37,640 nt of DNA from Pseudomonas sp. GM78 (GTDB lineage: Bacteria > Pseudomonadota > Gammaproteobacteria > Pseudomonadales > Pseudomonadaceae): assembly GCF_000282475.1 (NCBI RefSeq), contig NZ_AKJF01000087.1:1-37640 (forward strand), given 5' to 3'. The position numbers and the translations under genes are program-made. Shown in pieces: positions 16,617 through 30,927 of the stretch; positions within the stretch are counted from its first letter, which is position 1, and each line of letters starts with the position of its first letter. Below the pieces are notes generated by a model that saw only the letters and a program-made list of their open reading frames with translations, was not told the origin of the DNA and did no database searches.

Positions 16617-16690
16617 TGGAGCGGGTGAAGGGAATCGAACCCTCGTTATCAGCTTGGGAAGCTGGAGTAATGCCATTATACGACACCCGC
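16617..16690 (-). tRNA. tRNA-Gly (anticodon CCC)
   Basis: 74-nt tRNA with encoded CCA end. Read on the minus strand: acceptor GCGGGTG pairs with CACCCGC, anticodon loop TTCCCAA (anticodon CCC, reads GGG), T arm GAGGG-TTCGATT-CCCTT. The strong terminator is about 50 bp downstream. Sequence matches the usual Pseudomonas tRNA-Gly(CCC). Confidence 0.96.
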
Positions 16691-22498: not shown

Positions 22499-25400
22499 TC
22501 AGTCGAGTTCCAGCACCACGACGCGTTGTCCGGCACGCACCGCCGAACCCGGCTGCACGCGAATCTCCCGCACCACGCCGGCTATGGGCGCGAGCAGCGG
22601 GATTTCCATCTTCATCGACTCCAGGATCACCAGCACATCACCGGCCTCGACCCGGTTCCCGGCTTGCACCTGAACCTGCCAGAGGTTGCCAGCGATGTGG
22701 CTGTCGACGCTCAGTTGACCGCTGGCCAGTGGCGCGTCTTCGGTCACCTCCGGGGCCAGTTCTTCGCTGTCGAAATGCGCCTGGCCGCTGGCGATCCAGC
22801 GTTCGCGTTCGGCGTTGAATGCGCTTTTTTGCTGATCGCGAAAGGCGTTGATGCCCTGGGCCTCCTGCGCCAGGAAGGCCTGGTAATCAGCCAGGTTCAG
22901 CTGACTGTGCTCGATGTTCAGGTGGAAGCGCCCGAGGGGGAAATCCCGGCGAATGCGCAACAGTTCATCGGCGCTGACCGGGTAGAAACGGATCTGGTCG
23001 AAGAAGCGCAGCAGCCAGGGTTTGCCATCGAACGCGGCGACTTCGCGGTAGCGATTCCACATCTGCAGGGTACGCCCGACGAACTGATAACCGCCGGGGC
23101 CTTCCATGCCGTACACGCACATGTAGGCGCCACCGATGCCCACCGAATTTTCCGCGGTCCAGGTGCGGGCCGGGTTGTATTTGGTGGTCACCAGGCGATG
23201 GCGCGGATCGAGCGGGGTGGCGACCGGGGCCCCGAGGTAGACATCGCCCAGGCCCATCACCAGGTAGCTTGCGTCGAACACCGTGCGTTGCACCTGATCG
23301 AGGTTCGGCAGGTCGTTGATGCGGCGGATGAACTCCAGGTTGCTCGGGCACCAGGGGGCGTCCTTGCGCACGGTGGTCATGTATTTCTCGATGGCCAACT
23401 GACAGGCCGGGTCGTCCCAGGACAGCGGCAAGTGGACGATGCGCGAGGGCACCTGCAGGTCTTTGGCGGCGCACACGGCGTCCCATTCGCCGGCGACGAT
23501 GCCGAGCAGGTCCGCCAGTGGCAGTTGCTCGGGTTGGTAGTGCACTTGCAGCGAGCGGATACCTGGGGTGAGGTCGATCACGCCGTGCAGGTGTTTGCTT
23601 TCCAGGGCCTGCATGAGGGCGTGGGCGCGAAAACGCAGGACGAGGTCGAGCTCGGGGGCGCCGATTTCCAGGAGCAGGTGTGTATCGCCCGACAGCCGTG
23701 CAACGAGCCGCGTGTCTCCCTGATCCAACTCCAAAACAACAGGCGACACAATCCCCTGTAGGAGTGAGCCTGCTCGCGATAGCGGTGTGTCAGTCTCATC
23801 AACGTTGGCTGTGCTGCCGTCATCGCGAGCAGGCTCACTCCCACAGGGGGAATTCCATTTCACGGCGAGGTTGCGGGCGGTCTTGAGATCGACCGGTTGG
23901 AACTGCACCTTGTCGCCCGCCTTGAGCTGCCCCAGCTGCCAAAGATCCGCCTCGATCACCGTCACCGGGCACACGAATCCGCCCAGGCTCGGACCGTCCG
24001 GCCCCAGGATCACCGGCATGTCGCCGGTGAAATCCACTGCGCCGATGGCGTACGGATTGTCGTGGATGTTCGACGGATGCAAGCCTGCTTCCCCCCCGTC
24101 AGCCCGCACCCATTCCGGTTTCGGCCCGATAAGACGCACGCCGGTGCGGCTGGAGTTGAAATGCACTTCCCACTGGGTCGCGAAGAACGTGCCGATGTAG
24201 TTTTCCGTGAAGTATTCAGGCGCTCCATGGGGGCCGTAGATCACGCGAATTTGCCGTACGGCTGGCAACTCAGGGATTTCAGGCAGTTGCGCACCGACGC
24301 TGCGGTCGTTCAGCGTCGGCAGGTGCAACACATCACCCGCTCGCAAGGCACGGCCGCCATGCCCGCCAAACTGGCCGAGGGTGAAGGTACTTTTGCTGCC
24401 CAGGTAATCCGGCACCTGCAAGCCACCGCGCACGCACAGATAGCTGCGCGCACCAGCACCGGCAATCGTGCCGAGGTTTAACGTGGCACCGGCCGGAATC
24501 AACAACGCCGTGTTCATCGCCACGCTTTCGCCGTTCAGCGCCAGCGCAATCACTGCGCCCGTGACGGCAACGACCGCGTCGCAGTTGAAGCGCAGCAACG
24601 GCCCGCTCATGGTGATTTCCAGCGCGGCAAAGCCTTCGTCATTGCCCAGCAACAGGTTACCCAGGCGCAACGCGCGACTGTCCATCGGCCCCGATGGCGG
24701 TACGCCTACCGCCCAATAGCCAAGGCGGCCGGGATAGTCCTGGACGCTGGTCTGGGTGCCGGCGCTGAGCACTTCGAAGGTGTTGGCCTGATACATCAGG
24801 CCTTCCAGGCAACGGGTCCACGGCTGACCGCTGGCGAAGGGCGCATCGAGCAGAATCTGCCTCAGGTAATCACAGTTGGTTTCCACCCCGTAGAGCAGGC
24901 TTTCACCCAAGGCCTGGTGCAGATCGGCAGCCGCTTGTTCGCGGGTCGGTGCCCAACTGATGAGCTTGGCGATCATCGGATCGAAGTAGGGCGGGATCTC
25001 GCAGCCGGCCTCGACCCAGGTGTCGATCCGCAGGTGTTTGCCATCGGCGACGGGGAAATTGACCGCAGTGAGTAAGCCGGGGCTCGGTTGGAAATCCCGA
25101 CCCGGGTCTTCGGCATACAGCCGTGCCTGAATCGCATGACCCTCGGCTTTCAATCCCCGGCTCAACTCGCTCAACGGCGGCAGATCACCGGCCGCCAGTT
25201 GCACCATCCAGCGCACCAGGTCGACGCCCCAGACTTGTTCGGTGACGCCGTGTTCCACCTGCAAGCGGGTGTTCACTTCAAGGAAGTAGAACCGCCGGGC
25301 ATCGCTGTCGAACACGAACTCGACCGTGCCGGCGCTGCGGTAATTCACCGCCTTGGCCAGTTTTATCGCCGCCGCGCACAGTTCGTCGGCCATGCCCTCG

Positions 25401-26140
25401 GGCAGGTTCGGCGCCGGGGTTTCTTCGAGGACTTTCTGGTTGCGCCGCTGCACCGAGCAGTCGCGCACACCGAGGGCAATCACCTCGCCGCGACCGTCGC
25501 CAAATACCTGCACTTCCAGATGCCGGGCGCGCTGGATGTACTTCTCGATGAACACGCCGGCATCGCTGAAATTGTTCTGCCCCAGGCGCTTGACCGCTTC
25601 GAAGGACTCGCTCAATTCGGCCGCGCTGCGACACACCCGCATGCCGATGCCGCCGCCACCGGCGGTGCTTTTGAGCATCACCGGATAACCTACTTGCTCG
25701 CCGGCGATCAATGCCGCTTCGAGGCTGTCGAGCAGTTCGGTGCCTTCGAGCATTGGCACGCCGTGTTGCCGGGCCAAGGCGCGGGCGGTGTGCTTGAGGC
25801 CGAACACCCGCAGCTGCTCCGGGGTCGGGCCGATGAAGGCGATGTCGGCGGCTTCGCAGGCTTGGGCGAAGGCGGCGTTTTCCGAGAGAAAACCGTAGCC
25901 GGGATGGATCGCGGTGGCGCCGGTGGCCTTGGCGATGGCGAGGACTTTCTCGACGGCAAGATAAGTGCCCGCCGCCGCGCCTTCACCCAGGCTGTGGGCT
26001 TCATCGGCTTGCAGGATGTGCAGGCTCGCGGCGTCGGCTTCGGAGTACACGGCGACGCCTGCAACGTGCAGTTCGCGCAAGGTGCGCAGGATGCGACAGG
26101 CAATGGCGCCACGATTGGCAATCAGGACTTTTTCGAACAT
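22499..26140 (-). CDS. biotin-dependent guanidine/urea carboxylase with in-frame REPIN insert
   Basis: 1213-residue ATP-dependent biotin carboxylase. Order: biotin carboxylase N-domain (1-110, MFEKVLIANRGAIACRI), ATP-grasp (about 115-320, KSTAGGGGIGMR, EVNTRLQVEHGVTE), biotin carboxylase C-domain (335-440), KipA/AHS2-like carboxyltransferase part (about 470-750), KipI/AHS1-like part (about 800-1030), and a C-terminal biotin domain with Lys1177 in ESMKME. Residues about 764-796 are encoded by a complete REPIN (see 23753-23849); they are Ser/Asp/Gly-rich and fall between the two carboxyltransferase parts, so the enzyme may still work. Usually annotated urea carboxylase. The riboswitch and the two DUF1989 genes argue for guanidine as the true substrate, giving carboxyguanidine. 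Confidence 0.93.
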   Translation of the reverse strand: MFEKVLIANRGAIACRILRTLRELHVAGVAVYSEADAASLHILQADEAHSLGEGAAAGTYLAVEKVLAIAKATGATAIHPGYGFLSENAAFAQACEAADIAFIGPTPEQLRVFGLKHTARALARQHGVPMLEGTELLDSLEAALIAGEQVGYPVMLKSTAGGGGIGMRVCRSAAELSESFEAVKRLGQNNFSDAGVFIEKYIQRARHLEVQVFGDGRGEVIALGVRDCSVQRRNQKVLEETPAPNLPEGMADELCAAAIKLAKAVNYRSAGTVEFVFDSDARRFYFLEVNTRLQVEHGVTEQVWGVDLVRWMVQLAAGDLPPLSELSRGLKAEGHAIQARLYAEDPGRDFQPSPGLLTAVNFPVADGKHLRIDTWVEAGCEIPPYFDPMIAKLISWAPTREQAAADLHQALGESLLYGVETNCDYLRQILLDAPFASGQPWTRCLEGLMYQANTFEVLSAGTQTSVQDYPGRLGYWAVGVPPSGPMDSRALRLGNLLLGNDEGFAALEITMSGPLLRFNCDAVVAVTGAVIALALNGESVAMNTALLIPAGATLNLGTIAGAGARSYLCVRGGLQVPDYLGSKSTFTLGQFGGHGGRALRAGDVLHLPTLNDRSVGAQLPEIPELPAVRQIRVIYGPHGAPEYFTENYIGTFFATQWEVHFNSSRTGVRLIGPKPEWVRADGGEAGLHPSNIHDNPYAIGAVDFTGDMPVILGPDGPSLGGFVCPVTVIEADLWQLGQLKAGDKVQFQPVDLKTARNLAVKWNSPCGSEPARDDGSTANVDETDTPLSRAGSLLQGIVSPVVLELDQGDTRLVARLSGDTHLLLEIGAPELDLVLRFRAHALMQALESKHLHGVIDLTPGIRSLQVHYQPEQLPLADLLGIVAGEWDAVCAAKDLQVPSRIVHLPLSWDDPACQLAIEKYMTTVRKDAPWCPSNLEFIRRINDLPNLDQVQRTVFDASYLVMGLGDVYLGAPVATPLDPRHRLVTTKYNPARTWTAENSVGIGGAYMCVYGMEGPGGYQFVGRTLQMWNRYREVAAFDGKPWLLRFFDQIRFYPVSADELLRIRRDFPLGRFHLNIEHSQLNLADYQAFLAQEAQGINAFRDQQKSAFNAERERWIASGQAHFDSEELAPEVTEDAPLASGQLSVDSHIAGNLWQVQVQAGNRVEAGDVLVILESMKMEIPLLAPIAGVVREIRVQPGSAVRAGQRVVVLELD
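23753..23849. repeat. REPIN (type A) inside the carboxylase reading frame
   Basis: Arms 23753-23780 and 23822-23849 (28 nt each, one mismatch) carry the variant core GAGTGAGCCTGCTCGC in inverted orientation with a 41-bp spacer. The element has no stop codon in the frame used and is read through as part of a domain linker. Its 97 bp plus about 2 flanking bases equal 33 codons, so the frame is kept. Confidence 0.93.
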
Positions 26141-26241
26141 GGCATAACCCCTGGAGGGGATGCGGGCCGTCCCGCAGTTTTTCGATGAGCGTCGGGGTCG
26201 TCCCCGGCGAAAAAAACAATTTTCTTGCGAACAACTCCGAA

Positions 26242-26335
26242 CCTGTGGGAGCGGGCTTGCCCGCGATGGGGCCATCACATTCAACATTGATGTTGACTGA
26301 CACTCCGCTATCGCGGGCAAGCCCGCTCCCACAGG
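26242..26335. repeat. REPIN (type A, GAGCGGGCTTGCCCGC variant) within the guanidine operon
   Basis: Perfect inverted arms at the ends of a 94-bp element; the spacer holds TCAACAT-TG-ATGTTGA, itself a palindrome. It sits in the 274-bp gap between the second DUF1989 gene and the carboxylase gene. The strong hairpin could protect the upstream mRNA part from 3' decay and so alter the ratio of transporter and deiminase to carboxylase. Confidence 0.92.
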
Positions 26336-26414
26336 GATTAGTGGTGTTGTTGAGGTTTGAGGCACTGGCCGGAACGGGCCTGGCACAGCGCGAACAGCCA
26401 GCGGCGCAGACGAC

Positions 26415-27056
26415 TCAGTTCCATACCAGCAGCTCCGCAGGGGTCGGGTTGTAGGCGTTGCACGGGTTGTTCAGTTGTGGGCAGTTGGAGATCAGCACGA
26501 TCACGTCCATCTCGGCGCGCAGGTCGACGTATTTGCCCGGTGCGGAAATCCCGTCTTCGAAGGTCAGCCCGCCGTCCGCCGTGACCGGTACGTTCATGAA
26601 GAAATTGATGTTCGGCCCGATGTCACCTTTGCCCAGGCGCCCGTCGTGAACGCAGGCGCGCAGGTAGTTGTCGCGGCAACTGTGCATGTAGCGTTTTTCC
26701 AGGGCGTAGCGCACGGTGTTGCTCTCTTGTGCGCAGGCGCCACCCAAGGTGTCGTGACGGCCGCAAGTGTCGGCGACGATCGTCAGCATCGGCTTGCCGA
26801 GGTTGGAATACAGCACGCTGCCGGTGCTCAGGTACACGCTGTTCTGGCGGCGCAACGTGCGCTGCACGTCGTAGCGTTCCTTGGGGTTGGCGACGCTGTA
26901 GAACAGGGTGTCGACGGCCTGGTTGCCTTCCAGGTCGAGGATGCGCAGGGTCTGGCCGGCCTTGACCTCCATCAGCCAGGGTTCGCCGGCGGGAATGGTC
27001 GCGCGGTAGATCGCTGCTTCCGGTTGCTTTGGCGATGTGGCGATTGCAAGTGACAT
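26415..27056 (-). CDS. carboxyguanidine deiminase subunit (DUF1989; annotated UAAP2)
   Basis: 213-residue DUF1989 protein, traditionally named urea amidolyase-associated protein 2. The family signs are [18 protein letters not shown], a metal-site-like [17 protein letters not shown] (Cys/His set), CRDNYLRAC and [10 protein letters not shown]. In related bacteria the two DUF1989 proteins of such operons form the carboxyguanidine deiminase CgdAB, which turns carboxyguanidine to allophanate and ammonia. GAGGA precedes ATG 27056 and overlaps the stop of the preceding subunit gene, only 11 bp away. Which subunit is called A or B was not decided. Confidence 0.88.
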
Positions 27057-27067
27057 GGCAGCGATCC

Positions 27068-27793
27068 TCAGGCGAACAGGCGGTCGGTGTTGATGAAGCC
27101 GCGCTCGTTTTCCGGGCGCGAGGTGCGGCAGTGTTCGGCGACGCTGGGCTCGGCGTTCATCCAGCTGAGCTTCAGCGGCTTGGGCGCATATTCCGGCGTC
27201 GGGTCCATCGGATGTTGCAGGGCGGTGAGCACCACCAGGGTGTCCATCGGCGCGTACAACTCGATGTAGTCGCCGGCCTTCGAGTTGCCCTCGACGAAAT
27301 GAAAACGCCCGGCGTCGTCGACGTTCACCCGGCTGAACAGGTTGAGGGTCATCAGCAGGTCGGACAGGCCCAGCCCCCACTTGCCCAGTTCCACCAGCAG
27401 GTTGTCGGTACCATTGCGAAAGAAGCCGTTGCGCAGTTCCTGATAGCGGCCGACGCCGTATTTTTGCGCCACTTCGTCAGCGCAGAGCACGCCGCCGAGG
27501 CTGTCGCTCCAGCCGCAGGTGTCGGCGGTGATGGCGGCCAGCACGCGGCCCATGTCCGAGTACAGGCAATGGCCGGCGGTGAGCTTGGCCGTGTGTTGGC
27601 ATTTGAGGCTGTCGGGCAGGTTCAGGCGTTCGGTTTTTTCATTGGCGTTGAGCAGCGTCAGGCTGACGTTGGCTCCGCCGCGCAGGTCGGTCAGGCGCAG
27701 CAGTTGGCCGCGTTTGAGCACGAAGGAGCGGTGGCCGCCGCCGGGCAGCATTTCTTCGGCGAAGGGCGGGAACAGTTGGGTCGAATCAGTCAT
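27068..27793 (-). CDS. carboxyguanidine deiminase subunit (DUF1989; annotated UAAP1)
   Basis: 241-residue DUF1989 protein, traditionally urea amidolyase-associated protein 1. It parallels the next gene: [28 protein letters not shown], then the Cys motif [17 protein letters not shown] and [16 protein letters not shown], where the partner has [10 protein letters not shown] and [10 protein letters not shown]. The shared TCG..D.LGG element suggests a metal site in both; together they would be the carboxyguanidine deiminase. AGAGGA precedes ATG 27793. It lies 12 bp after the ABC ATPase gene, within the same operon. Confidence 0.88.
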
Positions 27794-27805: not shown

Positions 27806-28594
27806 CTAAGCAATACGAAGCGTGCCTGCCAATGGCGCCGGCAGGGCGTCGACGGCGGCACGCTGGGCGCGGCGGTCGCTGTTCAAAGGGATGTCGTAGG
27901 TGATGCGCGCGCCATAGGCGCCGGGGGCGTGCGGGTCGACGCGGACTTTGTCGAACACCAGCAAACGGGTGCCGAGGCTGAAGCCTTCGGACAGGTCGTG
28001 GGTGACCATGAACACGGTCAATTGGGTCTCGCGCCACAGCTCCAGGAGCAAGGTGTGCATGTCTTTGCGGATGCCCGGATCGAGGGCGCCGAAGGGTTCA
28101 TCGAGCAGCAATACCCGCGGCTTCATGATCAGTGCCTGGGCGATGGCGAGGCGTTGTTGCATGCCGCCGGACAGTTGCGCCGGGTACTTGTCCAGCGAAT
28201 GACCGAGGCCGACTTTGTGCAGCAGGACCGAGGCCTGTTCGCGGGCGTCTTTTTTCCCATGGCCGAACAACCGGCCCAGCAGTCCTGAGCGCGGCAATTC
28301 AAGACCGAGGGCGACATTGTCCAGCACGCTCAAGTGCGGGAACACCGAGTAGCGCTGGAACACCACGCCACGGCTGGCGTCCGGTTCAGCGGCCAGTGGT
28401 TGGCCGTCAAGCAGGATCTGGCCACGACTGGCGCGCTCCTGGCCAAGCAACAGGCGCAGGAAGGTCGATTTACCGCAACCGGAAGCGCCCACCAGGGTGC
28501 AGAACTCACCCTCGTTGACACTCAGGTTCAGGCCTTCGAGCACCACCTGGTCGGCGTATTGCTGCCAGACATTGTTCACCGTGATGAAGCTCAT
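27806..28594 (-). CDS. ABC transporter ATPase (NitT/TauT type), guanidine operon
   Basis: 262-residue ABC ATPase. Walker A is GASGCGKST (about 37-45), the Q-loop is VVFQRYSVFPHLSV, the signature is LSGGMQQR, Walker B is VLLLDEPFGALD and the switch His is in VTHDLSEG. It energises import by the adjoining permease and binding protein. Its ATG overlaps the permease stop by 4 nt (ATGA). The class is that of nitrate/sulfonate/taurine importers, a class often found under ykkC riboswitches. Confidence 0.93.
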   Translation of the reverse strand: MSFITVNNVWQQYADQVVLEGLNLSVNEGEFCTLVGASGCGKSTFLRLLLGQERASRGQILLDGQPLAAEPDASRGVVFQRYSVFPHLSVLDNVALGLELPRSGLLGRLFGHGKKDAREQASVLLHKVGLGHSLDKYPAQLSGGMQQRLAIAQALIMKPRVLLLDEPFGALDPGIRKDMHTLLLELWRETQLTVFMVTHDLSEGFSLGTRLLVFDKVRVDPHAPGAYGARITYDIPLNSDRRAQRAAVDALPAPLAGTLRIA

Positions 28595-29406
28595 GCCCGC
28601 GCTCCTTCATACCAGGGGAATGCCCGCAGGGTCAGGCGTTTGAGGCCCCAATCCATCAGCCAGGCGAGCAGGGTGATCCACACCACGTACGGCAAGATCA
28701 CGTCCATCGCCAGGTAGCGGCGCACCAGGAAAATCCGGTAGCCGAGGCCGTCGGTGGAGGCGATGGCTTCGGCGGCAATCAGGAACAGCCATGCCGAACC
28801 CAGCATCAGCCGCAGCGAGATCAGCAGGCGCGGCAGCAGCTGCGGCAGGACCACCCGCAACATCAGGGTCCAGGTCGATGCGCCGAGGGTCTGGGCCTTG
28901 ATCAGCAGTTCCACGGGGATTTCCCGGGCGCGCTGTTCCAGGTCGCGGGCCAGGGCCGGGGTGATGCCGATCACGATCAGCATCACTTTCGACAATTCCC
29001 CCAGGCCGAAGACGATGAACAGGATCGGCAGGATCGCCAGCGGCGGCACCATCGACAGCACGGTCAGCAAGGGTGACAACGGCGCGCCGAACAACGGCAG
29101 GGTGCCGGCGGCGATGCCCAGGCACAACCCGGCCAGCGCGCTGATGCCCAGGCCGATGGCCAGGCGTCGCAGGCTGGAAGCGCTGTCCTGCCACAGCAGG
29201 TATTCGCCGGTGCGGCTGTCGGCAACGAAGGCCAGGCGCTTGACCGCGTCGCTCATTTGCACGGCGCTGGGCAGCAGTTTGTCGTTGGGGTTGTCCGCCA
29301 GGCGCTCGGCCGAGCCCATGAAGTAGGCGAACAGCAGCAGGGCGAACGGCAGGATCACCAGCAACAGGCGACTCGGGCGATCCGGGTGGCGATTGATCAG
29401 GCGCAT
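28591..29406 (-). CDS. ABC transporter permease (NitT/TauT type), guanidine operon
   Basis: 271-residue inner-membrane permease with about six hydrophobic segments and the cytoplasmic EAA-like loop LLIKAQTLGASTWTLMLRVVLPQLLPRLL that contacts the ATPase. The start is ATG 29406 with AGAGGA 8 nt upstream; a TTG six bases further up is not needed. It starts 15 bp after the binding-protein gene and overlaps the ATPase gene by 4 nt. Confidence 0.92.
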   Translation of the reverse strand: MRLINRHPDRPSRLLLVILPFALLLFAYFMGSAERLADNPNDKLLPSAVQMSDAVKRLAFVADSRTGEYLLWQDSASSLRRLAIGLGISALAGLCLGIAAGTLPLFGAPLSPLLTVLSMVPPLAILPILFIVFGLGELSKVMLIVIGITPALARDLEQRAREIPVELLIKAQTLGASTWTLMLRVVLPQLLPRLLISLRLMLGSAWLFLIAAEAIASTDGLGYRIFLVRRYLAMDVILPYVVWITLLAWLMDWGLKRLTLRAFPWYEGARA

Positions 29407-29421
29407 GGCCAAGTCCTCTGG

Positions 29422-30489
29422 TTACAACTTGGCGTCGGCAGCCATCTGCACGTAGCTGGGGTCGAAACGCAGCTTGAGGTTGCCCTTGTCGCCGCTGGTC
29501 ACCCCGTTGGCGAAGGCCATGCCGACTGCGCTGGTGTCTTTGGCGCCTTCACCGAGCAAGCCGTGCTGGAAGGAAAACTCGGCGACCTTGCGCATGGTTT
29601 CCGGCAGTTGCTGGCTGGTGCTGAACGCCAGGGCCTCCTGAGGGGTGGCGAACAATTTGGTGGTGTCCAGTTGCGCCTGGAAACCGGCCAGATCGGTGCC
29701 CGAGGCCTTGGCCATGTGCTCCAGTGCGGCCTTGCCCGCGGCGTTTTTCGCGTTCATCAACTCGACCACTTCGAACCAGGCGCCGGTCAGTGCCTTGCCC
29801 AGGGCCGGGTTGTCCTTGAGGGTCTGGGAGTTGACCACCATCATGTCCATGATCTCGCCGGGGATCTGGCTGGAATTGAACACTTCGGTCACCCCGGGCT
29901 TGGCCTTGATGTCCGACAGCATCGGGTTCCAGGTGGTGACGGCGCTGACCTGATCGGTGTTGAAGGCGGCGGAGATATCGGCGTCGGAGGTGTTGACCAC
30001 CTTCAGGTCTTTCTCGGTCAGGTCCACCGAATCCAGGGCCCTGGCCAGCAGGTAATGCGACACCGAGAGCTCGACCAGGTTGACGTCCGCACCCTTGAGA
30101 TCGGCGACTTTCCTGCCTTCGCCCTTGAGCACGATGCCGTCGTTGCCGTTGGAGAAGTCGCTGACGATCAGCGCGGTGCTGTCGACGCCGCCAGCGGCCG
30201 GAATGGTCAGCGCATCCATGTTGGTCATGGTGCAGCCATCGAACTGGCCGGCGGTGTACTGGTTGATCGATTCGACGTAGTCGTTGAGCTGCACCACATC
30301 GATCTTGATGCCGTACTTCTTCGCCCACTTGTCGACGATGCCTTGGCTGCCGGCGTATTCCCAGGGCATCCAGCCGGCGTAGATCGTCCAGCAGACGCTG
30401 AAGTGGTCTTTTGGGGCGGCGTGGGACGAGAGGCTCACGAGGGCGGCGAAGGCCGCGGCGAGCAGGGCGGGTAAACGATGCTGGGACAT
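29422..30489 (-). CDS. ABC transporter substrate-binding protein, guanidine operon
   Basis: 355-residue periplasmic binding protein of the NitT/TauT (NMT1-like) class. The signal peptide has the core LPALLAAAFAALVSLSSHA and likely cleavage after Ala24; no lipobox is present. The mature start KDHFSVCWTIYAGWMPWEYAGSQG and GQFDGCTMTNMDALTIPAAGGVDSTALIVSD form the expected ligand pocket region, rich in Trp and Tyr, which would suit a cation. GGAG before ATG 30489 lies in a sequence that can pair with the upstream riboswitch. Guanidine or a guanidino compound is the inferred ligand. Confidence 0.92.
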   Translation of the reverse strand: MSQHRLPALLAAAFAALVSLSSHAAPKDHFSVCWTIYAGWMPWEYAGSQGIVDKWAKKYGIKIDVVQLNDYVESINQYTAGQFDGCTMTNMDALTIPAAGGVDSTALIVSDFSNGNDGIVLKGEGRKVADLKGADVNLVELSVSHYLLARALDSVDLTEKDLKVVNTSDADISAAFNTDQVSAVTTWNPMLSDIKAKPGVTEVFNSSQIPGEIMDMMVVNSQTLKDNPALGKALTGAWFEVVELMNAKNAAGKAALEHMAKASGTDLAGFQAQLDTTKLFATPQEALAFSTSQQLPETMRKVAEFSFQHGLLGEGAKDTSAVGMAFANGVTSGDKGNLKLRFDPSYVQMAADAKL

Positions 30490-30496
30490 GGTGGTT

Positions 30497-30590
30497 CTCC
30501 AGTTGATCAAGGGCGGACAGGAAGGCAGCGGCACCGCGAACGGTGGCTTGTCTCCCGGGCTTTTGTCCCGCCGTGTAACCTCAACTGGAG
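30497..30590 (-). promoter_or_regulatory. Possible anti-Shine-Dalgarno pairing of the riboswitch
   Basis: The RNA segment CTCCAGTTGA (30590-30581), in the variable hairpin of the riboswitch, is the exact complement of TCAACTGGAG (30506-30497), which contains the GGAG ribosome site of the binding-protein gene. The two pairings (local hairpin or SD-blocking) exclude each other. This would give translational control by guanidine. Confidence 0.55.
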
Positions 30591-30646
30591 GTCGCCAACT
30601 CTCGGACCAGTCACTCGCGCTTGCGAGCCGGAACCCTAGTCAGCCA
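30544..30646 (-). promoter_or_regulatory. Guanidine-I (ykkC) riboswitch
   Basis: Read on the minus strand, all conserved blocks are present in order: CTAGGGTTCCGG (30639-30628), ACTGGTCCGAGAG (30611-30599), then a variable hairpin ACCTC-CAGTT-GAGGT, and ACGGCGGGACAAAAGCCCGG with GGAGA (30574-30551). P1 closes by TGGCT (30646-30642) with AGCCA (30548-30544). Directly after it, CACCG-TTCG-CGGTG (30545-30532) forms a hairpin that competes with the P1 3' strand. No U-run follows, so a standard terminator is not seen. The class binds guanidinium and turns expression on. Confidence 0.93.
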
Positions 30647-30698
30647 TTGCAAATTGTGGTGCCGCGAACCTGTGATGACTCCTGCACACCGTTACTAA

Positions 30699-30715
30699 AG
30701 CGAGAGACGTGCCAA
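30699..30715 (-). promoter_or_regulatory. Candidate sigma-54 promoter of the guanidine operon
   Basis: On the minus strand TTGGCACG with GG at 30713-30712, then exactly 10 bp, then GC at 30701-30700 (TCGCTTT). This is the -24/-12 spacing of RpoN promoters, one base off the usual TTGC. Transcription would begin near 30688, about 42 nt before the riboswitch. Confidence 0.6.
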
Positions 30716-30800
30716 GTCGGCAGAAGCGCTCTGGCCCGCGGGATTGGTGGACTGGAGATGTAGAAGGGCCGCCTGCGCTTGCCTTGTGATGGTGCGCGGC

Positions 30801-30817
30801 TGCACCGCAATGGGACG
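30801..30817. promoter_or_regulatory. Candidate NtrC-like site upstream of the sigma-54 promoter
   Basis: TGCACC-GCAAT-GGGACG matches 10 of 14 fixed positions of the NtrC consensus and is centred about 120 bp upstream of the proposed start, a usual enhancer distance. A second TGCAC half-site is at 30851. The match is imperfect. Confidence 0.35.
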
Positions 30818-30927
30818 TGCCGGCCGCTGATCCGAAGGTTGCCGGGGCGCTGCACTTGGTCGGGGAAAGCGAGTCAAAACAAGTGACAGCCGGCCTGTAC
30901 CGGTTGTAGGTCTTTCAGGAGGCCGCC

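Follow-up and report, generated by a model that had tools for sequence, protein, structure and literature searches.

Guanidine-I riboswitches are usually transcriptional ON switches (PMC12186494, as excerpted), and they are likewise called transcriptional in the consulted parts of PMC5696562, PMC7544219 and PMC11410670. The operon type considered here, which combines guanidine import with carboxylation, is known from Vreelandella boliviensis and some enterobacteria (excerpts of PMC12508155 and PMC12186494), and for the guanidine-I element of a gammaproteobacterium with this operon an intrinsic terminator is presumed in the consulted sections of PMC12508155. For guanidine-II, the excerpted literature proposes that an anti-ribosome-site strand is freed upon binding. 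The excerpts of the literature examined contain no description of the sequestration of a ribosome site by guanidine-I. The founding guanidine-I/ykkC papers (Nelson 2017, Reiss 2017, Battaglia 2017 and Barrick 2004) may mention such platforms, and novelty is therefore claimed only with respect to the literature examined.

The window, by which we mean the whole stretch of 37,640 nucleotides that was analysed, carries an RF00442 aptamer upstream of genes for guanidine transport and breakdown (TIGR03427, UAAP1/2 and the urea carboxylase family). The operon runs in the order binding protein, permease, ATPase, two UAAP/DUF1989 proteins, Guanidine-II element and carboxylase, and it contains two guanidine sensors, Guanidine-I up front and Guanidine-II ahead of the carboxylase gene. 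Its features are the following.

29422..30489, minus strand: ABC transporter substrate-binding protein gene (355 aa), operon gene 1 (TIGR03427, 576 bits, cut-off 334)
28591..29412, minus strand: ABC permease (PF00528)
27806..28594, minus strand: ABC ATPase (PF00005)
27068..27793, minus strand: UAAP1, presumably a carboxyguanidine deiminase subunit (TIGR03425, PF09347)
26415..27380, minus strand: UAAP2 (TIGR03424, PF09347; ORF as listed, with the domain starting at about residue 123)
26162..26209, minus strand: Guanidine-II riboswitch, 5' of the carboxylase gene (RF01068, 51.1 bits, cut-off 32)
22499..26386, minus strand: urea/guanidine carboxylase (TIGR02712, 1884 bits; ORF as listed, with the domains starting at about residue 83)

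A tRNA gene was also detected at 16620-16690 on the minus strand (RF00005, 57.7 bits), distant from the riboswitch.

The Guanidine-I aptamer is the sole RF00442 match in its genome. It is located 60 nt upstream of the ATG of the binding-protein gene (30489, minus strand), and its family and operon suggest that it binds guanidinium. The elements of the leader, in the direction of transcription, are listed below.

30550..30650, minus strand: Guanidine-I (ykkC subtype 1) aptamer RF00442 (cmscan, 93.7 bits against a cut-off of 63, E 6.5e-16; the match spans model positions 1-107 of 107)
30577..30593, minus strand: hairpin GACCTC-CAGTT-GAGGTT, which we take to be the stem named P2; the switching strand would be its 5' arm and loop (sequence, cmscan, folding)
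30581..30590, minus strand: anti-ribosome-site segment CTCCAGTTGA, an exact 10-nt complement of 30497-30506
30565..30572, minus strand: 5' element of P3, GGCGGGAC, taken by the spacer in the ligand-free fold (stepwise folding)
30552..30556, minus strand: GGGAG at the 3' end of the aptamer, partner of the spacer in the ligand-free fold
30532..30546, minus strand: spacer hairpin CCACC..GGTG (folding)
30512..30524, minus strand: spacer segment CTTCCTGTCCGCC, invader of P3 and GGGAG, with no U-run after it (folding, terminator search)
30497..30506, minus strand: TCAACTGGAG, complement of CTCCAGTTGA, including the GGAG ribosome site (30497-30500)

The preliminary description had claimed that a segment of the P2 hairpin pairs exactly with the GGAG region of the binding-protein gene. 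Indeed, CTCCAGTTGA (30590-30581) is complementary to TCAACTGGAG (30506-30497) at 10 of 10 nt on the minus strand, and each segment occurs once in the leader. The further claim that such a match is improbable by chance was borne out as well. Within the window the 10-mer is found at these two places only, with 0.07 expected, and among 171 other ORF-start ribosome-site contexts, none of them near an aptamer, eight reached 7-8 nt and none reached 9 nt or more. These control contexts belong to ORFs of at least 200 aa in Pseudomonas-type loci that were mechanically listed and are not all real genes. When contexts near aptamers were still included, 8/189 reached at least 8 nt, four of these at 10 nt. 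Mono-nucleotide shuffles of both stretches gave 10 nt in 1/20,000 and at least 9 nt in 8/20,000. Genome-wide, the 10-mer followed by an ATG at 4-11 nt occurs at two places, that of the window and one other. Coincidence as the source of the match was rejected on the 10-mer count in the window and on the 171-context control. The CTCC/GGAG share of the match is nevertheless expected, because P2 starts with GACCTC in most relatives and a ribosome site must be GGAG-like. Since 4 of the 10 pairs follow from the P2 stem and the ribosome site by themselves, the conservation of the remainder is the real test, and the informative part of the match is the 6-nt extension and its covariation.

The ligand-free folds place this complement in an alternative structure. 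It had been suggested that the segment covers the ribosome site in the free state; in the unconstrained fold, the 10-bp helix has a mean pair probability of 0.97 and the ribosome site is closed, each GGAG base being unpaired with a probability of at most 0.003. By stepwise folding, the P1, P2 and P3 hairpins are present until the end of the aptamer. At 140 nt the emerged spacer segment takes the P3 strand GGCGGGAC together with the 3' GGGAG. P2 remains a local hairpin until the transcript includes the ribosome site, which at 154 nt takes the 5' arm of P2 as its partner. Invasion of P3 and of the aptamer's terminal GGGAG by the spacer is thus a further part of the OFF state, absent from the preliminary description. 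With 30 nt of coding sequence added, P1 was refolded too in the model.

The energies computed were -5.9 kcal/mol for P2 alone and -17.3 kcal/mol for the duplex of P2 with the ribosome site, and the OFF fold lay about 10 kcal/mol below the fold in which P2 is kept and 18 kcal/mol below the one in which the aptamer is kept (model). The KD of 44 uM given for a guanidine-I riboswitch of this operon type in the consulted part of PMC12508155 is worth about 6 kcal/mol by our own arithmetic. An OFF state lower by 10-18 kcal/mol is beyond what a micromolar ligand can overcome at equilibrium, so either the switch is kinetic or the model overstates the gap; comparison of the two energies suggests that the decision is probably made during transcription. 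When the aptamer was enforced, two of the four GGAG bases were still paired with the downstream coding sequence in the model.

The mechanism that we propose would act as follows. Without guanidinium, the spacer emerging past the aptamer would invade P3 and the 3' GGGAG; next, the ribosome site would emerge and form 10 bp with the loop and 5' arm of P2, opening that hairpin and closing the ribosome site of the binding-protein gene (OFF). With guanidinium, P3 would resist invasion, P2 would remain a local hairpin and the ribosome site would be free (ON). What we infer is how the RNA looks with ligand bound, which way the switch works, that the decision falls during transcription and what it does to translation.

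The RF00442 model matched 163/298 genomes of the genus, 153/248 of the family, 29/369 of the class and 43/398 of the phylum, these samples overlapping. From part of the matches, 230 loci were taken, 14 of them without the aptamer motif used by the script, and 222 aptamer entries were obtained (215 after removal of exact duplicates). Among these 215, the aptamer is ahead of a binding protein in 156, of a permease in 51 and of a UAAP-type protein in one, with seven lacking an assignment. Leaving out the 59 entries without a binding-protein assignment and 11 in which P2 does not start with [GA]ACC led to a set of 145 leaders, and dropping repeats of P2 plus ribosome site led to a set of 122. Two loci (L219 and L233) have two guanidine-I aptamers each, every one assigned to a binding-protein gene. 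Several genomes contain two or three aptamers that are 1.4-4.5 kb apart: G177 (C20:691528, 692931 and 697456), G300 (C29), G028 (C31) and G384 (C1). In L030 and in L265 (Pseudomonas sp. AL03), the aptamer and the complementary segments are present and no binding-protein ORF was found from the expected start.

Pairing was counted on an alignment anchored by the ribosome-site consensus and blind to P2, which was used because the loop columns are misaligned in the MAFFT alignment. The two segments change jointly in the relatives, where the pairs CTCCAGTTGA/TCAACTGGAG, ACCTCCAGTAG/CTACTGGAGGT, GACCTCCGA/TCGGAGGTT, GACCTCTG/CAGAGGTT and ACCTCTAAT/ATTAGAGGT occur (G-U being counted in some), and the complement extends to 14 bp in L207. 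In a permutation over the 49 distinct P2 sequences, positions 6-9 had 1.73 Watson-Crick pairs against 1.16 with shuffled partners (0/4000). The 29 P2 sequences with ACCTC account for most of this excess (1/4000), and the 20 without it show little (82/4000 at positions 6-9 and 1826/4000 at positions 7-10). The core positions 1-5 show no excess, as expected (4.02 against 3.99, 686/4000). This last result agrees with the view that the match has no function, P2 having the sequence GACCTC for independent reasons and ribosome sites containing GGAG, so that a complement of 4-7 nt comes free; permease leaders also share similar P2 sequences, and several of them do not pair. We consider this view highly improbable, because the flank past the core both pairs and covaries and because a 9-nt match is reached by 0/171 other ribosome-site contexts.

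Co-changes were also tested against random placement on a tree of the 145 binding proteins; independent-pair tests showed few pairs among those listed. Three independent C-G to U-A double changes were found at position 6 (null 2/400). Elsewhere there were three at position 7 (26/400), two at position 8 (142/400), one at position 10 (198/400) and four at position 12 (16/400), with none at positions 9 and 11. Branch co-change on this 145-leader tree gave no excess over the null at positions 5, 8, 9, 10 and 11 and a weak one at positions 7 and 12. At positions 6, 7 and 8, respectively, 6, 7 and 7 branches changed on both sides, and 3, 3 and 2 of them ended in a pair. The share of leaders that are paired is above the null at positions 6-12 (the null reaches it in 0 to 19 of 400). 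RNAalifold on the MAFFT alignment of 39 leaders returned the P2 and P3 hairpins only, with no helix between P2 and the ribosome site. The covariation is thus real and uneven along the helix, the alternative pairing being kept by compensatory change clearly at position 6 and less so or not at all elsewhere. The comparison of homologous leaders that the preliminary description had proposed thus finds both segments covarying, most strongly at one position.

The covarying positions 6-10 lie chiefly in the loop of P2, and in the window the loop could make a contact of 5 nt, CAGTT:AACTG. Both observations would suit a kissing contact, in which the loop pairs with the flank and the stem stays closed, for example placing or masking the ribosome site in the bound state. 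Such a contact is very improbable here, as the complement continues into the stem arm (10 bp in the window and 14 bp in L207) and P2 is opened in the free fold.

The 122 leaders were folded as well. In 87 of them (71%), P2 and the core of the ribosome site pair at P>0.5, against 33% when ribosome-site stretches were exchanged between leaders (swapped control) and 32% with shuffled flanks; for the 98 leaders with an ACCTC arm, the corresponding values are 72%, 43% and 32%. The P2 hairpin (P>0.5) is present in 102/122 leaders before the ribosome site exists and in 23/122 with it, and the GGGAG pairs with the spacer at P>0.5 in 111/122 before the ribosome site exists. The anti-ribosome-site strand is shared with the aptamer and engages in alternative pairings, both in the leader of the window and in its relatives. 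The remaining 35/122 leaders fold otherwise, including L211, which is a compensatory case. An exact complement of 9-10 nt is present and the P2 hairpin is yet kept in L003, L006, L007, L012 and L041, where the two states are close in the model. In some leaders, for example L190, L194, L056 and L143, pairing is confined to the core over 6-7 nt. By eye, different inverted repeats are found in the relatives at the place of the spacer hairpin.

Three leaders depart from this arrangement in their own ways. L174 has a degenerate ribosome site (GCGGAA) and its P2 loop AGTC keeps the upstream complement GACT. In L070 and L187, the match at or just 5' of the ribosome site (15 and 11 nt, G-U allowed) involves the loop and 3' arm of P2 instead of its 5' arm, possibly another way of closing that site.

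The permease leaders form a separate group. In six of them (L011, L018, L032, L036, L044 and L048) the permease is 175-213 nt downstream, the P2 arm is identical (ACCTCCAG) and no pairing of more than 5 nt over the ribosome site was found; a different expression platform may lie there, or a small gene that was not read. In the permease leaders L046 and L137, the gene is nearer and a 7-nt pairing is present.

The distribution beyond these sets was assessed by a pattern scan of named genomes, which took in at least 120 stretches and 125 entries (two more were dropped near contig ends, and seven entries were not scorable); a first reading used 80 of these stretches, and the counts given here used all of them. 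In this set, an entry pairs when at least 7 nt including the ribosome site are complementary, and terminator-like sites were called by a crude filter. Among the matches listed, pairing is seen in 45/75 gammaproteobacterial entries, against a shuffled mean of 18.9 and a maximum of 28, and 6/75 are terminator-like. With one entry per gammaproteobacterial genus, 17/34 of those listed pair (shuffled mean 5.9, maximum 13). In the Bacilli listed, 1/13 pairs and 10/13 are terminator-like. Pairing was found in 3/8 listed Betaproteobacteria (shuffled mean 1.9, maximum 4, a count within the shuffled range), in 1/15 listed Alphaproteobacteria and in 1/7 entries listed from other groups. Microbulbifer, Porticoccus, Marinobacter, Reinekea, Methylophilus and Methylophaga, as single cases, have loop variants of their own, and in Buttiauxella and Enterobacter CCTCT is situated in the P2 loop. 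The layout of the window is hence not specific to this locus and occurs in many Gammaproteobacteria, a few of which have an intrinsic terminator too.

These data bear on whether the leader could be a classical transcriptional guanidine-I switch, in which the hairpin of GGGAG and spacer is an intrinsic terminator and complementarity to the ribosome site is secondary. Guanidine-I is called transcriptional in the excerpted literature, and a U-run hairpin lies downstream of the aptamer in 10/13 Bacilli listed and in Raoultella, Pectobacterium and Vreelandella. For the window, such a switch is very improbable. The absence of a U-run terminator after the aptamer, as already described for this stretch, was confirmed: no terminator-like site was found at 30400-30900 and the leader contains no U-run. 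The stem partner of a terminator overlapping the 3' end of the aptamer is present and the terminator-like site is absent, so an intrinsic terminator in this leader was rejected. Moreover, the spacer has a U-run of at least 5 in just 12/122 leaders (4 in 11 and at most 3 in 99), the ribosome-site pairing covaries, and of the 6/75 listed gammaproteobacterial entries that are terminator-like, one (L321) is so only by T's past the ribosome site. L321 was rejected as a case of terminator plus pairing and left out of the cases below, because its T-run is 3' of the ribosome site.

A terminator-like site and the pairing occur together in L289 (Raoultella terrigena), L341 (genus Klebsiella in NCBI ranks) and L297 (Pectobacterium) and, by eye, in L207 and L211; a few enterobacteria thus retain a terminator besides the pairing. 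Such leaders could act at both levels, by termination, intrinsic or Rho-dependent, and by ribosome access, which would be compatible with a translational reading. We regard this as rather unlikely for the window, whose own leader lacks a U-run.

Tentatively, and with slightly more doubt than confidence, we view the gammaproteobacterial leaders as a natural series in which one aptamer shifts from transcriptional to translational control. The invading hairpin would be a terminator in Bacilli and Vreelandella; Raoultella and Pectobacterium, with both the U-run and the helix of P2 with the ribosome site, would draw two outputs from a single aptamer within the same leader; and in most of the Pseudomonas-group leaders that were read, which are without a U-run, the hairpin would persist as a wedge, setting the P2 arm free so that it can close the ribosome site. 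Related leaders with a terminator, the helix or both would be a set for the direct test of such a change.

Taken together, we consider it very likely that the leader of the window is a guanidine-I riboswitch with a translational expression platform and that it acts as an ON switch. Computation establishes that the two segments are complementary, that their pairing is conserved with compensatory change, how the leader folds without ligand and that no U-run is present here. The pairing is real and conserved, and it probably serves as a translational platform here and in many of the sampled gammaproteobacterial guanidine-I leaders. The earlier idea of control at translation thus gains support from ligand-free folding and from covariation in relatives, and it agrees with the missing terminator. 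The aptamer should act on ribosome access in roughly half or more of the listed gammaproteobacterial leaders (45/75 entries, 17/34 genera). The design of reporters is affected, as translational fusions with the native start codon would be required.

Riboswitch classes often act through terminators in Firmicutes and through ribosome sites in Proteobacteria, a habit that makes a translational guanidine-I less surprising. The aptamer is a known one, and the output, pairing with the ribosome site, is new relative to the excerpts of the literature examined. Like the transcriptional guanidine-I riboswitches of Bacilli, the window has an RF00442 aptamer, a 3' GGGAG that pairs downstream in the ligand-free fold and a presumed ON direction. 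Unlike them (U-run hairpin in 10/13 and pairing of P2 with the ribosome site in 1/13 of those listed), it lacks a U-run, and its ribosome site has a partner in the 5' arm of P2. The operon of Vreelandella boliviensis is of the same type, with a guanidine-I element at its head and a guanidine-II element ahead of the carboxylase gene (PMC12508155, as excerpted), but in contrast to the window the authors presume an intrinsic terminator for this guanidine-I in the same excerpts. The congener V. hamiltonii (L304), with a terminator-like site and no pairing of P2 with the ribosome site, agrees with these authors. Finally, the guanidine-II and -III riboswitches are described as translational ON switches for the same ligand (consulted parts of PMC12186494, PMC5696562 and PMC9561414), as proposed here, although their aptamers are unrelated to guanidine-I. 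In P. aeruginosa, the guanidine-II riboswitch has its anti-ribosome-site strand in a P0 helix that is not part of the aptamer hairpins (PMC9561414, in excerpt), whereas in the window it is an arm of the aptamer itself.
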